Of a DNA stretch of 64,000 nt, positions 10,459 to 57,457 are shown one piece after another (the stretch's first letter is position 1; every line of letters starts with the position of its first letter). The position numbers and the translations under genes were made by a program. The notes under the pieces were generated by a model. The model saw only the letters and a program-made list of their open reading frames with translations. It did no database searches and had not been told where the DNA came from. Source of the DNA: Gemmatimonas phototrophica (lineage in GTDB: Bacteria; Gemmatimonadota; Gemmatimonadetes; Gemmatimonadales; Gemmatimonadaceae); assembly GCA_945869195.1 (NCBI GenBank), contig CAMBNV010000001.1:310001-374000 (forward strand), read 5' to 3'.

Positions 10459-11427
10459 GTGCGCACCTCCCGCATCGCTTTTTTTGGAGCACTCGCCATC
10501 GGCACCATCGTTCTGCGCGCCGCCTTCGCGCCAGAGCAGGCGGCCCAGCAGGAGTCCGAGCTGGTCCCAGCGAAGGCCGTCTCCTTCACGGAGGCGAGCT
10601 GGATCCCGCTTCGCGAAGCCGATATCCCCAACGATTCTATGGGCGCGTCGATTCGGCGTGGACTCTACCTGCTGCGCTTCACACCCGAGAGCCTCCCCGC
10701 GTACGCCCCTGGCAACCTGCGATGCACGAGTTGCCACCAGGACGACGGGCTCAAGCCGACCGCGGCCCCCCTCACCGGTTCCCACGCGCGATTCCCCAAG
10801 TACATGCCGCGCTCCGGCGCTGTGATCGCGCTCGCCGACCGAGTGAACTACTGCTTTACCCGGTCGCTCGCTGGCAGCGCAGTCCCGGTCGACAGCCGCG
10901 AGATGACCGACCTTCTCGCATATATGGCATACATCTCCAAAGACATTCCGGTCGGCACAAAAATCGCCGGCGCCGAGGGACTGATCACCATGCGCGACAC
11001 GCTGGTCGGTGACGCGGCGCGCGGTGAGGCGCTCTTTACGGCTAAGACATGCAGTACCTGTCACGGTGCCAACGGAACGGGCGTCGGTCCGGTCCCGGCG
11101 CTCTGGGGTGCCAAGTCGTACTCGGTCGGCGCCTCGATGGCGCGACAGGAGCGCGCGGCGAGCTTCATCAAGTACAACATGCCACTCTCTTCGCCCGGCA
11201 CGCTGACGTCGCAGGAGGCCTTCGACCTCTCGGCCTATATCAACTCGCACGCGCGCCCCGACTCTCCCGGCAAGGAACTCGACTGGCCCATTGGCGGCGC
11301 ACCGAAGGATGTGCCGTATGCCACAACGGGACATCCCGCCTTCAATCCGCCGCCACTGCTCCCCCGCGCGACCTCCCGCGGGGCGATTGTCCCCACGCCG
11401 CCCGTCGTCAGCCGTCGCAGGCGGTAG
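10459..11427 (+). CDS. TsdA-like dihaem cytochrome c (thiosulfate dehydrogenase family)
   Basis: A 322-aa protein started at GTG 10459, with AGGAG at 10447-10451. It has an N-terminal export signal (IAFFGALAIGTIVLRAAFA) and two haem c sites, CTSCH at 89-93 and CSTCH at 198-202. Between them RFPKYMPRSGAVIALADRVN is followed by Tyr-Cys-Phe; that Cys132 corresponds to the axial haem ligand Cys of TsdA. TsdA oxidises thiosulfate to tetrathionate, or the reverse, in the periplasm. SoxC/SoxD-like genes follow directly, consistent with sulfur metabolism. It could also belong to another SoxA/TsdA relative. Confidence 0.8.
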   Translation: MRTSRIAFFGALAIGTIVLRAAFAPEQAAQQESELVPAKAVSFTEASWIPLREADIPNDSMGASIRRGLYLLRFTPESLPAYAPGNLRCTSCHQDDGLKPTAAPLTGSHARFPKYMPRSGAVIALADRVNYCFTRSLAGSAVPVDSREMTDLLAYMAYISKDIPVGTKIAGAEGLITMRDTLVGDAARGEALFTAKTCSTCHGANGTGVGPVPALWGAKSYSVGASMARQERAASFIKYNMPLSSPGTLTSQEAFDLSAYINSHARPDSPGKELDWPIGGAPKDVPYATTGHPAFNPPPLLPRATSRGAIVPTPPVVSRRRR

Positions 11428-12716: not shown

Positions 12717-13400
12717 ATGCGGTACACGTTCATGCGGCGCGTGCGGCGTGGTGGGACGGTCGCGACCCTGTGCGCGACAACATTCGCCCTGACCGGCTGC
12801 GGACGCACCGGGACTGAGAGCAATCTGAGCCAGACGGCGCTCGATGCGTCGATGCGCTTCGCCGACTACGATGGCGGCACCGTACCCGGCGGCCCAGGTG
12901 CCGGTCAGGGCTATGCCATCGGTAGCACCGCGACCGCCGAAGCAATCGCAACGCTCAACACCGATATCGGGCCCGGTGGCGCCGAGCTCCCCTCTGGCAG
13001 CGGAACCGTCGCAACAGGTCGCGCGGTCTACGCCGCCAAGTGCGCCCTGTGCCATGGCGCGAATGGCGAAGGGATGGCCCCGGCATTCCCGCGCCTGAGC
13101 GGCCGTGATCCCAATGCCGAGGGGTTCAAGTTCGCGAGCGACCCCAAGCTGCCGCATACCATCGGCAACTACTGGTCGCATGCGACGACGCTCTTCGACT
13201 ACATCAGGCGCGCCATGCCACACGCCACCCCGGGATCGCTCACCAACGACGAGGTCTACGCCCTCACCGCGCACCTCCTCGCGGTGGACGACGTGATCCC
13301 CGACGACGCGACGCTCGACGCCACCGCGTTGCGTGCGGTGAAGATGCCGTACGCAGACCGTTTCGTGCCGGACGACCGCCGGCCTACCGCCAAGAAGTGA
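12717..13400 (+). CDS. soxD: SoxD-like monohaem cytochrome c lipoprotein
   Basis: A 227-aa protein whose ATG follows the SoxC stop by two bases. It has a lipobox (FALTGC, Cys28), so it is probably membrane-anchored on the periplasmic side. The haem site is CALCH at 109-113. The N-terminal GQGYAIGSTATAEAIATLNT and LPSGSGTVATGRAVYAAKC match the start of SoxD cytochrome domains. It should take electrons from the SoxC-like molybdenum centre. Classical SoxD has two haems; only one CxxCH is present here, so it resembles truncated SoxD or SorB. It converges on a small secreted-protein gene four bases away. Confidence 0.82.
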   Translation: MRYTFMRRVRRGGTVATLCATTFALTGCGRTGTESNLSQTALDASMRFADYDGGTVPGGPGAGQGYAIGSTATAEAIATLNTDIGPGGAELPSGSGTVATGRAVYAAKCALCHGANGEGMAPAFPRLSGRDPNAEGFKFASDPKLPHTIGNYWSHATTLFDYIRRAMPHATPGSLTNDEVYALTAHLLAVDDVIPDDATLDATALRAVKMPYADRFVPDDRRPTAKK

Positions 13401-52662: not shown

Positions 52663-53958
52663 TCAACTGATCGGTCCGCTGTTCCGCATCACCGTCGCCG
52701 AGCCGATATCTGCAATAGTCCGCGTCCCTGAGAGCGCCATCACGGTGCGCAGCTCGGCGCGCATCAGACGCAGCACCCGCTCCACACCAGCCTGACCGAA
52801 CGCGCCGAGGCCCCACAGATAGGGTCGCCCGATCCCGACCGCATCTGCGCCCAACGCGAGCGCCTTGAACACGTCGGTGCCGCGACGGATGCCGCTGTCG
52901 AGAATCACCGGCACCTGCTTGCGCACCACGCGCGCGATCTCCGGCAAGCAGTCGATCGTCGCGCGCCCCGATTCGGCGGCGCGCCCGCCATGATTCGAAA
53001 CGACGATCCCGTCCGCCCCGTGAGAGAGGCATCGCTGCGCGTCCTCCGCGGTGGTGATCCCCTTCACCATCACCTTCATCGTGGTCGCCGCTTTCAGCCG
53101 ATCGACGAACTCCCAGGCCTGCATCGGCGTGTTGAAGTCCGCACTCGTCATCCCGAGGCCGTCAAACATCGGCTTGCGCGCGAAGCTCGTGTTGCGGCTG
53201 CCATACGCGTCGCCACTCGCATGGCACTGCGTGCAGTCGCGGCGGTCGCGCTTGATAAAACGCGACAGCGTAATCCGGTTACTCGACACCGGCAGGTCGG
53301 TCGTGTATACCACCACCGGGCAGCCCGCGGCCTCAGCCCGCCGGAGCAGTCGCTCGGTGATCTCCCACCGCGCGGTCGCGTAGAGCTGGTACCAGACGGG
53401 TTCGCCACGCGCGGCCGCGACCTCCTCCACCCCTGTGGTCGTCACCGTGGAAAGGATCATCAGGTGCTTCTGCGACTTCGCCGCGCGCGCGGTCGCGAGT
53501 TCGCCGTCCGGGTGAAACGCGCGATGGCTCCCCGTCGGCGAGAGGATAATCGGCGTTTCCATCGGCGTGCCGAGGAGGGTGGTGCTCGTGTCGACGTTCT
53601 CAATGCCGGCGAGCCGTTTGTCGCGAATGTCCCAGTGCGCGAACCCCGATCGATTCGCCCGCAACGTCACGTCGCCGTCCACACCGGTCGCGATGTAGCC
53701 GTAATGGGCGCTCGGCAACGTGCGCTGAGCCGTGACGCGCATGTCGAAGACGTCGAGGGCATCCTCGGCCTTGGTGACGAGCTCACCGAGCGCCTGGTCG
53801 GGCTCGCCTAGCGTGCCGACATATTCGCGCGCGTCCTCGGCGTCCTCGTTCTCGGCCTCCTCCTGCCGCTCCGCGCAGGCGGCCGCTCCTAGCGCGGCGA
53901 GAAGCGGACTCGCGGCTAGGTATCGGGCGAACGCGCGACGACTGGTCACTTGATCCAT
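52663..53958 (-). CDS. Exported FMN-dependent alpha-hydroxy acid oxidoreductase with CxxCH motif
   Basis: A 431-aa protein from ATG 53956-53958. The N-terminus combines a Tat-like twin Arg (SRRAFARYLA) with a lipobox (GAAAC, Cys28). The FMN barrel shows GDVTLRANRSGF, LSPTGSH, SNHGGR at 321-326 (with the proton-abstracting His323), LDSGIRRGTDVFKALALGAD and GRPYLWGLGAFG. Within the substrate-loop region lies CTQCH at 242-246 followed by a glycine-rich turn, a potential covalent haem c site not found in ordinary lactate oxidases. It likely oxidises a 2-hydroxy acid outside the cytoplasm and could pass electrons to haem. Confidence 0.85.
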   Translation of the reverse strand: MDQVTSRRAFARYLAASPLLAALGAAACAERQEEAENEDAEDAREYVGTLGEPDQALGELVTKAEDALDVFDMRVTAQRTLPSAHYGYIATGVDGDVTLRANRSGFAHWDIRDKRLAGIENVDTSTTLLGTPMETPIILSPTGSHRAFHPDGELATARAAKSQKHLMILSTVTTTGVEEVAAARGEPVWYQLYATARWEITERLLRRAEAAGCPVVVYTTDLPVSSNRITLSRFIKRDRRDCTQCHASGDAYGSRNTSFARKPMFDGLGMTSADFNTPMQAWEFVDRLKAATTMKVMVKGITTAEDAQRCLSHGADGIVVSNHGGRAAESGRATIDCLPEIARVVRKQVPVILDSGIRRGTDVFKALALGADAVGIGRPYLWGLGAFGQAGVERVLRLMRAELRTVMALSGTRTIADIGSATVMRNSGPIS

Positions 53959-54164: not shown

Positions 54165-55922
54165 ATGATGACCGCACTGCGTCGCTCTGCCCTCGCGCTC
54201 ACCGCGCTACTCGTCGCCCTCGCCGCCTGCGCGCCGCGCGGCATCGCCACCGCGCCGACGGCCGCGCCTGGGAGTCCGCCCGCTTCGCGCGCCACACCCG
54301 CCACGGCGGAGTACGACGTCGTGATCGAGAACGGCCGCCTGATCGACGGCACCGGTGCCGCCTGGTATTACGGCGATGTCGCGGTGCGGGGTGACCGCAT
54401 CGCAGCGATCGGCCCGCGAGGTGCCTTCCGGTCCGCGGGCGCCACCATGCGTGTCGATGCCACCGGTCAGGTGGTCTCGCCGGGCTTCATCGACATCCAG
54501 GCGCACTCGATCGGCCACTACATGACGGGTGATGGCAAGGCGATCTCGATGATCACGCAGGGGATCACGACCGCGATCCATGGGGAGGGCAGTTCGCTGG
54601 GCCCGATCAACGACCGCCTGCTCGCCGCCGAGTCCGACAGCGCGTCACGTCGGCTGCTCTCGCAGTTCACCGGCCCGCGCGGCTTTGCCAAGTGGCTCGA
54701 GTTTATGGTCACGCGGGGGACCTCACAAAACGTCGGCTCCTTCCTCGGCGACGCCACGCTGCGGGTGTACGTGAAGGGCGAAGAGGCGGGCCCGCTCACG
54801 GCCGCCGAGCGCGACACCATGCGGGCGATGGTCGCACGGTCCATGGAAGACGGTGCGTTTGGCCTCGCGAGCGCGTTGATCTACCCGCCCAATACCTATG
54901 CGAGTACCGACGAGCTCATCGAAGCCGCGAAGGCGATGGCGCCCTACGGCGGCCTGTACATCACCCACATGCGCTCGGAGGGCGACAAGTTCCTCGAGGC
55001 GATGGACGAAGCGATCCGAATCGGCCGAGAGGGCGGCGTGCCGGTGGAGATCTACCACCTGAAGGCCAGCGGCCCGCGCAACTGGCCCAAGATCCCACTC
55101 GCGATCGCCAAGATCGACTCGGCGCGCGCCGCCGGGCAGGATGTGCAGGCGAACATGTATCTGTATCCGGCCGGTGGGAACTCCTTCGCCAGCTGCATCC
55201 CGCCCAAATATTCCGAGGGAGGGCGCCTGATGGAGAATCTCAGGAATCGCGCGCTGCGCGCAACGATGGTCGCCGACATGCATGCGCTCGATGCGGGCTA
55301 CGAGAATCTCTGCGAAATCGCGACGCCCGCGAATGTGATGGTCGTCGGGTTCCGCAACGAAGCCAACATGCGGTTCGAGGGGAAGCGACTGGATGCCATA
55401 GCCGCCACGCTCGGGAAAGACTGGGCCGAGACCATTATCGACCTGAACGTGGACGAACGCTTGGGCCTCGGTGAGCTGCTCTTCCTCATGAGCGAGGAGA
55501 ATATTCGCCTGCAGTTGCAGCAGCCCTGGATGAAGTTCGGCACTGACGCCGGATCGTCCGATCCAGCGACCGCGAGGGGCATGGTGCATCCGCGCGCCTA
55601 CGGGAACTTTACGCGCCTCATGGGGCGGTATGTGCGGGAGCAGCGCGTGCTCACGCTGGAGGACGCCGTGCGCAAGGCGAGCGCAGCGGTCGCCACGCGG
55701 CTCTCACTCACCGACCGGGGAGTCCTCAAGGTCGGGCTCAAAGCCGATCTGATCATCTTCGATCCCAACACGATCATCGACAACGCCACGTTCGAGCGGC
55801 CGCATCAGCTCTCGACCGGTGTGCGCGATGTGTTCGTCAATGGGATCGCGGTGCTGCGGAATAATGCGCACACTGGCGCGAAACCCGGCGTGGTGGTGCG
55901 CGGGCCGGGGTACCGACCATGA
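54165..55922 (+). CDS. N-acyl-D-amino-acid deacylase family lipoprotein (Gln variant)
   Basis: A 585-aa amidohydrolase with lipobox (LVALAAC). The family is recognised from DVVIENGRLIDGTGAAWYYG at the start of the small beta domain, VSPGFIDIQAHSIGHYM at the metal site, THMRSEGDKFLEAMDEAI, EIYHLKASGPRNWPK, and GTDAGSS and GLKADLIIFDP near the end. The first His of the usual HxH metal pair is Gln (IDIQAHS), a variation seen in some exported relatives. It should release D-amino acids from N-acyl forms or act on D-peptides. It overlaps its paralogue by ATGA. Confidence 0.87.
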   Translation: MMTALRRSALALTALLVALAACAPRGIATAPTAAPGSPPASRATPATAEYDVVIENGRLIDGTGAAWYYGDVAVRGDRIAAIGPRGAFRSAGATMRVDATGQVVSPGFIDIQAHSIGHYMTGDGKAISMITQGITTAIHGEGSSLGPINDRLLAAESDSASRRLLSQFTGPRGFAKWLEFMVTRGTSQNVGSFLGDATLRVYVKGEEAGPLTAAERDTMRAMVARSMEDGAFGLASALIYPPNTYASTDELIEAAKAMAPYGGLYITHMRSEGDKFLEAMDEAIRIGREGGVPVEIYHLKASGPRNWPKIPLAIAKIDSARAAGQDVQANMYLYPAGGNSFASCIPPKYSEGGRLMENLRNRALRATMVADMHALDAGYENLCEIATPANVMVVGFRNEANMRFEGKRLDAIAATLGKDWAETIIDLNVDERLGLGELLFLMSEENIRLQLQQPWMKFGTDAGSSDPATARGMVHPRAYGNFTRLMGRYVREQRVLTLEDAVRKASAAVATRLSLTDRGVLKVGLKADLIIFDPNTIIDNATFERPHQLSTGVRDVFVNGIAVLRNNAHTGAKPGVVVRGPGYRP

Positions 55923-57457
55923 TCGTTCACCGCCTGCTGAGGCGCGGCGGTATGGCCTGCGCGAGCGCGCTATTCCTCTCCGCCTGCCACCCGCCCGCCC
56001 TCGGCACGACCATCACGAATGTCCGCATCATCGACGGCACCGGAGCGCCCGCGGTCTCGGGGTCGGTGCGATTCATCGGAGACTCGATCGTCGCGGTGGG
56101 CCTCGTGCGGCCAGCGCGCGGTGACTCGGTGATCGACGGCGGCGGACTGGTGCTCGCGCCAGGGTTCATCGACACGCACAGCCATCACACCGGGGATCTG
56201 CTCGCGATGCCCGAGGCGCTCGGCGCCGTGAGTCAGGGGATCACGACGATCGTTGGGGGCAACGACGGCGGGCACGCGTATCCGCTCGCCGCAACGATGG
56301 ACACGCTCGGCAAGATCCGCCCCTCGCTCAATGTCGCGTACTACGCCGGCCATGGCACCCTCCGCCGACTCGTCATGGGCGACGACTTCAAGCGCAAAGC
56401 AACGGCACTAGAAGTTGATGCCATGGCGGTGCTTCTACGGCAGGAGCTCGACGCTGGCGCACTCGGACTCTCCACCGGCCTCGAGTACGACCCTGGCATC
56501 TACTCCGACCGCAGCGAGGTGATCGCGCTCGCCAAGGTCGCGGCCGCGGTGAAGGGACGGTACGTCAGTCACATCCGCAGTGAGGACCGCGACTTCTGGG
56601 ATTCGATCGAGGAGATCATCGCGATCGGCCGCGAGGCCAAGCTCCCGGTCCAGATCAGCCATGTGAAGCTCGCCATGCTCTCGCTCTGGGGAGACGCCGA
56701 CTCGCTCGTCGCTGTACTCGAGGGGGCGCGCGCTGAAGGGATCGACATCACCGCCGACATCTATCCGTACCCATACTGGCAGTCCACGCTCACGGTGCTC
56801 TTTCCGGCGCGCGACTTTGCCGACCGTGCGGAGGCGAACAAAGTCCTGCGCGAAATCGCCCGGCCTGAAGGGTTACTGATTGGCCACTTCGCCGCGCACC
56901 CCGCATACGAAGGCAAGACGGTCGCGGAGATTTCGGTGATGCGGAGCGAGAACGCGGCCAGCACGCTCATGGGGCTTATCCGAGAAGCGCTCGTCTGGGA
57001 AAAAGCGCACCCGGGCCGCGACGGCGAGAGCGTCGTCGCCACGAGTATGGACGAGCCGGACATCGTAAAGCTCATGCAGTGGGACCAGACGAACATCTGC
57101 TCTGACGGTGCCCTCGACGGCGCGCATCCGCGCGGCTTCGGCGCATTCACGCGCCTGCTTGGGCGCTACGTCCGCGAGCAGCAGGTCATGCCACTCGAGA
57201 CCGCGATCATGAAAATGACGAGTCTCTCAGCGATCCATATGGGGATCGCGAGGCGCGGCACGATCGCGACGGGGCAATTCGCCGATCTCGTGCTCTTCGA
57301 TCCAGCGACGGTTGCCGACCACGCGACGCCAGCCGAACCTCATCGCGTCTCAACCGGCATCGTGCGGGTGTGGGTGAATGGGCGCACCGTCTGGCGTGAT
57401 GGCCAGACGGTCGCAGGGCGCTCCGGGCGCGTGATTCGGAGACACGCCGCGCCCTGA
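55919..57457 (+). CDS. N-acyl-D-amino-acid deacylase family lipoprotein
   Basis: A 512-aa second D-aminoacylase-like amidohydrolase, start overlapping the previous stop (ATGA). Lipobox LSAC near residue 23. The metal site is canonical: APGFIDTHSHHTGDLL. Other family stretches: GITTIVGGNDGGHAYPLA, ALGLSTGLEYDPGIYSDRSE, VSHIRSEDRDFWDSI, LPVQISHVKLA and CSDGALDGAHPRGFGAF, ending with ATGQFADLVLFDP. The two tandem proteins are clearly diverged, so they probably treat different N-acyl-D-amino acids or D-dipeptides, with ggt and M28 enzymes as other peptide scavengers. Confidence 0.88.
   Translation: MIVHRLLRRGGMACASALFLSACHPPALGTTITNVRIIDGTGAPAVSGSVRFIGDSIVAVGLVRPARGDSVIDGGGLVLAPGFIDTHSHHTGDLLAMPEALGAVSQGITTIVGGNDGGHAYPLAATMDTLGKIRPSLNVAYYAGHGTLRRLVMGDDFKRKATALEVDAMAVLLRQELDAGALGLSTGLEYDPGIYSDRSEVIALAKVAAAVKGRYVSHIRSEDRDFWDSIEEIIAIGREAKLPVQISHVKLAMLSLWGDADSLVAVLEGARAEGIDITADIYPYPYWQSTLTVLFPARDFADRAEANKVLREIARPEGLLIGHFAAHPAYEGKTVAEISVMRSENAASTLMGLIREALVWEKAHPGRDGESVVATSMDEPDIVKLMQWDQTNICSDGALDGAHPRGFGAFTRLLGRYVREQQVMPLETAIMKMTSLSAIHMGIARRGTIATGQFADLVLFDPATVADHATPAEPHRVSTGIVRVWVNGRTVWRDGQTVAGRSGRVIRRHAAP

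Follow-up and report, generated by a model that had tools for sequence, protein, structure and literature searches.

The FMN_dh family (PF01070) includes glycolate oxidase, lactate oxidase and mandelate dehydrogenase, which share one barrel and a catalytic set comprising two Tyr residues, a Lys, a His and an Arg. Loop 4, a mobile and frequently disordered segment that connects strand β4 to helix α4, shuts over the active site (PMC4908395, PMC7039449). In yeast flavocytochrome b2 (EC 1.1.2.3) the FMN_dh domain passes electrons to haem and then to cytochrome c, and the haem is of the b type and is carried by an N-terminal b5 domain roughly 86 residues long (PMC6472588). Transfer from flavin to haem c is known from p-cresol methylhydroxylase and gluconate 2-dehydrogenase, in which the haem c belongs to a distinct subunit that has a cytochrome fold; in a review of cytochrome-bearing flavoenzymes, the c-type cases are complexes with cytochrome subunits or domains (PMC6472588). 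A precedent for a very small haem c unit is the magnetochrome of MamP, a minimal unit of about 23 residues (PMC6472588) that forms a small separate domain of an unrelated protein. The accessible portion of a survey of FMN_dh enzymes describes b5-type haem domains and types with a longer loop 4, and does not mention haem c (PMC8491902). No report of a haem c enzyme of the glycolate-oxidase type was found in a literature search that was short on subscription journals.

The window analysed here is a stretch of 64,000 nt from Gemmatimonas phototrophica (contig CAMBNV010000001.1, positions 310,001 to 374,000), to which all coordinates refer. An ORF on its minus strand (52663–53958), running from an ATG at 53958 to a stop codon at 52663, encodes a protein of 431 aa that, judged from its sequence, is an FMN-dependent α-hydroxy-acid dehydrogenase, the activity being predicted. 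Its TIM-barrel domain (residues 77–423; 52690–53730, minus strand) has a fold match to glycolate oxidase 1gox, and the product matches PF01070 with 384 bits against a cutoff of 24.9 (E 8e-115). A sequence comparison with the PDB places lactate and glycolate oxidases closest, and no haem c protein was among the matches. Residues Tyr24, Tyr129, Asp157, Lys230, His254 and Arg257 of glycolate oxidase align with Tyr88 (53695–53697, minus strand), Tyr193, Asp221, Lys299, His323 (the equivalent of the catalytic base; 52990–52992, minus strand) and Arg326. Because these catalytic residues are conserved, oxidation of 2-hydroxy acids is expected. To the glycolate oxidase plan the protein and its relatives add Tat export, a CxxCH motif in loop 4 and a histidine at position 85.

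The motif, CTQCH (residues 242–246; 53221–53235, minus strand), is a putative haem c attachment site embedded in a conserved D-x-R-x-C-x-x-C-H. An earlier sequence-only reading had placed it at these residues, inside a loop of the FMN barrel, and both points are borne out: the motif is read from 53235 to 53221 and aligns between strand β4 (TTDLP, residues 219–223) and Trp282, that is, within what is called loop 4 in lactate oxidase (PMC4908395). In the alignment this loop, the active-site lid, comprises residues 222–280 (53119–53295, minus strand). The same reading had contrasted a haem motif in the barrel loop with the separate haem domain of flavocytochrome b2; in agreement with this, Pfam detects neither a cytochrome c domain nor a cytochrome b5 domain (PF00173) in the 431-aa protein, and its N-terminus is a Tat signal. 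The interpretation favoured here, with a probability of roughly 0.7, is that the enzyme is a periplasmic 2-hydroxy-acid:cytochrome c oxidoreductase that carries haem c on its lid and has no cytochrome domain. Attachment of haem to CTQCH is suggested by the motif, its invariance, the clade that it marks, the export signal and the co-occurrence of assembly genes.

Conservation of CxxCH in homologues, a lack of which the earlier reading had named as grounds for rejecting its haem interpretation, proved to be complete. In an alignment of 115 family sequences from several phyla, C242, C245 and H246 are each present in all 115, while CxxCH occurs at this site in 0 of 56 paralogues, which have neither Cys. 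The paralogues examined at ≤43% identity, including a copy in the organism's own genome (L001), likewise have no CxxCH there. Across 199 relative genomes, 24 orthologues score above 300 bits, and every one of them has the motif in the same place. A motif-independent scan covered one genome per species, its patterns being based on SNHGGRA and on the region of Y-x-x-[TG]-G-[TV]-D and excluding CxxCH; its best 80 loci nevertheless all contain CxxCH. In 247 genomes drawn from the phylum of the Acidobacteriota locus L044, more divergent members, with scores as low as 243 bits, carry it as well. A single CxxCH is short and might be taken for chance or an inert relic of the lineage, but only 0.0015 occurrences per protein are expected from the query's own composition, and the motif is totally invariant amid loop neighbours that vary freely. 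Since every one of the 115 homologues conserves CxxCH, a chance origin is ruled out, and the relic explanation is regarded as refuted. A divergent subclade (L163, L164, L165, L166 and L168) has the form C-Q-x-C-H, with an extra His two residues later.

The best 80 loci are distributed over Acidobacteriota (35), Pseudomonadota (24), Gemmatimonadota (12), Verrucomicrobiota (3) and Bacteroidota (2), with one each, possibly misbinned, in Planctomycetota, Spirochaetota, Nitrospinota and Myxococcota. A named species, Methylobacterium bullatum (Alphaproteobacteria), has on one of its replicons (L154:6001–7086) an unannotated member with DTRTCTDCH, and thus with CxxCH, as well as PPAHYGY and HRRKLL.

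When loop 4 and column 85 were removed before tree building, the CxxCH proteins grouped as a single clade, which one branch (support 100/99) separates from the proteins that lack the motif; a larger quick tree gave the same split with a support of 100. This clade is apparently an undescribed bacterial family extending over several phyla: no description of it was found in Pfam, NCBIfam, the PDB or the literature, the last searched with little coverage of subscription journals. The first sequence to split off on the non-CxxCH side of the branch, and the nearest sister to the clade, is L167, from a genome of the phylum to which L044 belongs. It has a Tat signal of the same kind (RRQFFRFLAASPLLSQ) and neither CxxCH nor His85. 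As L167 is exported but motif-free, export may predate the motif. With no root inferred for the tree, L167 represents either a possible intermediate or a possible loss of the motif.

The sequence-only reading had also called for a conserved Met or His ligand nearby. Met264, in the sequence KPM, was considered as the distal ligand and rejected, as this position is Met in 87 of the 115 sequences, Asn in 12 and Ile in 9. His85 (53704–53706, minus strand), on the other hand, is found in 115 of 115 family members versus 4 of 56 paralogues; those with His85 yet without CxxCH, which count against the favoured interpretation, include L169, L170 and L171. It aligns with Val21 of glycolate oxidase, three residues ahead of Tyr24. 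Because His85 is invariant and Met264 is not, His85 is the likelier of the two, and on the basis of this conservation it is the likeliest candidate for the second (distal) haem ligand. Three arginines are specific to the clade, namely Arg115 (111/115), Arg240 (107/115) and Arg287 (110/115), where the paralogues have mostly Val, Pro or Ala, and Trp, respectively; these could contact haem propionates. In a further departure from glycolate oxidase, the equivalent of its Arg164 (Arg228 in the query; 53275–53277) is Arg in only 70 of 115 members and Thr in 35, compared with Arg in 55 of 56 paralogues. The three arginines accompany the motif while the Arg164 equivalent is relaxed, and the surroundings of the active site have therefore been remodelled.

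The same invariant residues would also be compatible with a Cys2His2 site, in which C242, C245, H246 and His85 bind zinc or another metal and clamp the lid to the barrel of an ordinary exported hydroxy-acid oxidase. All four potential ligands are available in each of the 115 sequences, and extra structure stiffens loop 4 in lactate monooxygenase (PMC7039449). The exact CxxCH pattern argues against such a site, however, as does the export of almost all carriers, which zinc would not require. Metal-only sites often show interchange of Cys and His, and no such swap is seen in the 115 aligned sequences, although these span several phyla. A metal site is thus considered unlikely.

A redox-active disulfide between C242 and C245, situated by the flavin, passing electrons to or from thiols and having its potential tuned by His246, is also conceivable. 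CxxC pairs adjoining a flavin are known in sulfhydryl oxidases, which counts in its favour. The position of loop 4 over the active site (PMC4908395) would suit a disulfide as well, but the invariance of both His246 and His85 (115/115) would be left unexplained, and this alternative is considered very improbable.

Structures were predicted with AF2 for the query (22 alignment rows) and for a compact relative, L058 (66 rows). In the query model, loop 4 has a pLDDT below 50. The L058 model has a pLDDT of 94.2 and a TM score of 0.90 to glycolate oxidase 1gox, and shows a one-turn helix (residues 192–194) starting at the first Cys of CTVCH (192–196); confidence in this model is lowest in the block around CxxCH (mean pLDDT 68). 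Loop 4 has about the length seen in ordinary FMN_dh members, which it does not exceed in L058, and the family has gained no domain.

The N-terminus of the query (53875–53958, minus strand) is of the Tat type (MDQVTSRRAFARYLAASPLLAALGAAAC), with SRRAF at residues 6–10, R7 and R8 being the twin arginines. Tat-like and lipobox features had both been noted from the sequence. The former extends to the family, with RR-x-[FLM] in 94 of 96 full-length relatives, whereas the latter is seen in the query as the lipobox-like AAAC28 but not family-wide: Cys28 occurs in about 15 of 98 relatives, and the lipobox, being confined to a minority, is not a family trait. The organism's own genome contains CcmF/CcmC-type genes, TatC and several c-type cytochromes, and a cytochrome c assembly gene was present in 45 of 45 family-bearing genomes tested elsewhere. 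Among the relative genomes this test has little power, because assembly genes are nearly universal there (197/199).

Haem c is usually attached to unfolded apoproteins. The Tat system transports folded proteins (PMC10924467). Tat export before haem c attachment would therefore be an unusual order of events, and no direct precedent for the combination was found in the literature. Under the favoured interpretation, the protein would fold with FMN in the cytoplasm and, to judge from its signal, leave through Tat. Outside the cytoplasm, the cytochrome c maturation system may attach one haem to C242 and C245 in the exposed loop 4, the exposure of the lid perhaps allowing the assembly machinery to reach its site after folding. 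His246 would serve as proximal ligand; the distal one would probably be His85, which precedes the substrate-binding Tyr88 by one turn of helix, and this would keep the lid haem beside the flavin. The hydroxy acid would reduce FMN much as in glycolate oxidase, via the conserved His323, Arg326, Lys299 and Tyr193, and FMN might then give up its electrons one at a time to the haem, with a cytochrome c as the next acceptor. That the several-phyla family as a whole consists of folded, Tat-exported flavoenzymes to which a lid haem c is added after export, with His85 as second ligand and lid closure bringing the haem to FMN, is given slightly better than even odds.

Such an enzyme would resemble flavocytochrome b2 in its expected electron path, with a putative haem c on a barrel loop replacing the haem b of a b5 domain, and would share putative flavin-to-haem c transfer with p-cresol methylhydroxylase and gluconate 2-dehydrogenase, unlike them having no cytochrome-fold subunit. 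In contrast to magnetochrome, the small haem c unit would lie in the lid of a TIM barrel. If haem is present, the protein would be a self-contained flavin–haem wire without a cytochrome domain. If the hypothesis is correct, the family would show that an enzyme can gain a second redox centre by a few point changes in a loop and not by domain fusion, and L167 could stand for an intermediate stage. The combination of Tat export with attachment of haem c would become a testable question, many proteins now called α-hydroxy-acid oxidases would need re-annotation, and a compact hydroxy-acid enzyme would be available for direct electron transfer to electrodes.

The flanks of the 80 loci were surveyed for neighbouring genes, leaving out antisense artefacts (one cluster) of crude gene calling in GC-rich flanks. 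No cytochrome c gene was found in them as a conserved neighbour, a point against the favoured interpretation. A PQQ alcohol dehydrogenase lies in the 8-kb flanks of about ten of the 80 loci (L045, L065, L068, L072, L091, L106 and others), in keeping with periplasmic oxidation of alcohols or acids. PF00144 hydrolases were observed in the 8-kb flanks of eleven. In the window, two tandem amidohydrolases, about 33% alike, occupy 54165–57457, divergent from the FMN gene; in L034, GGT, a DUF5723 outer-membrane-like protein, the FMN gene, the amidohydrolases, a glyoxalase-fold protein and an esterase are kept together. Elsewhere in the window, ORFs with PF00034 cytochrome c domains on the plus strand (11014–11250 and 13008–13283) encode possible electron acceptors.
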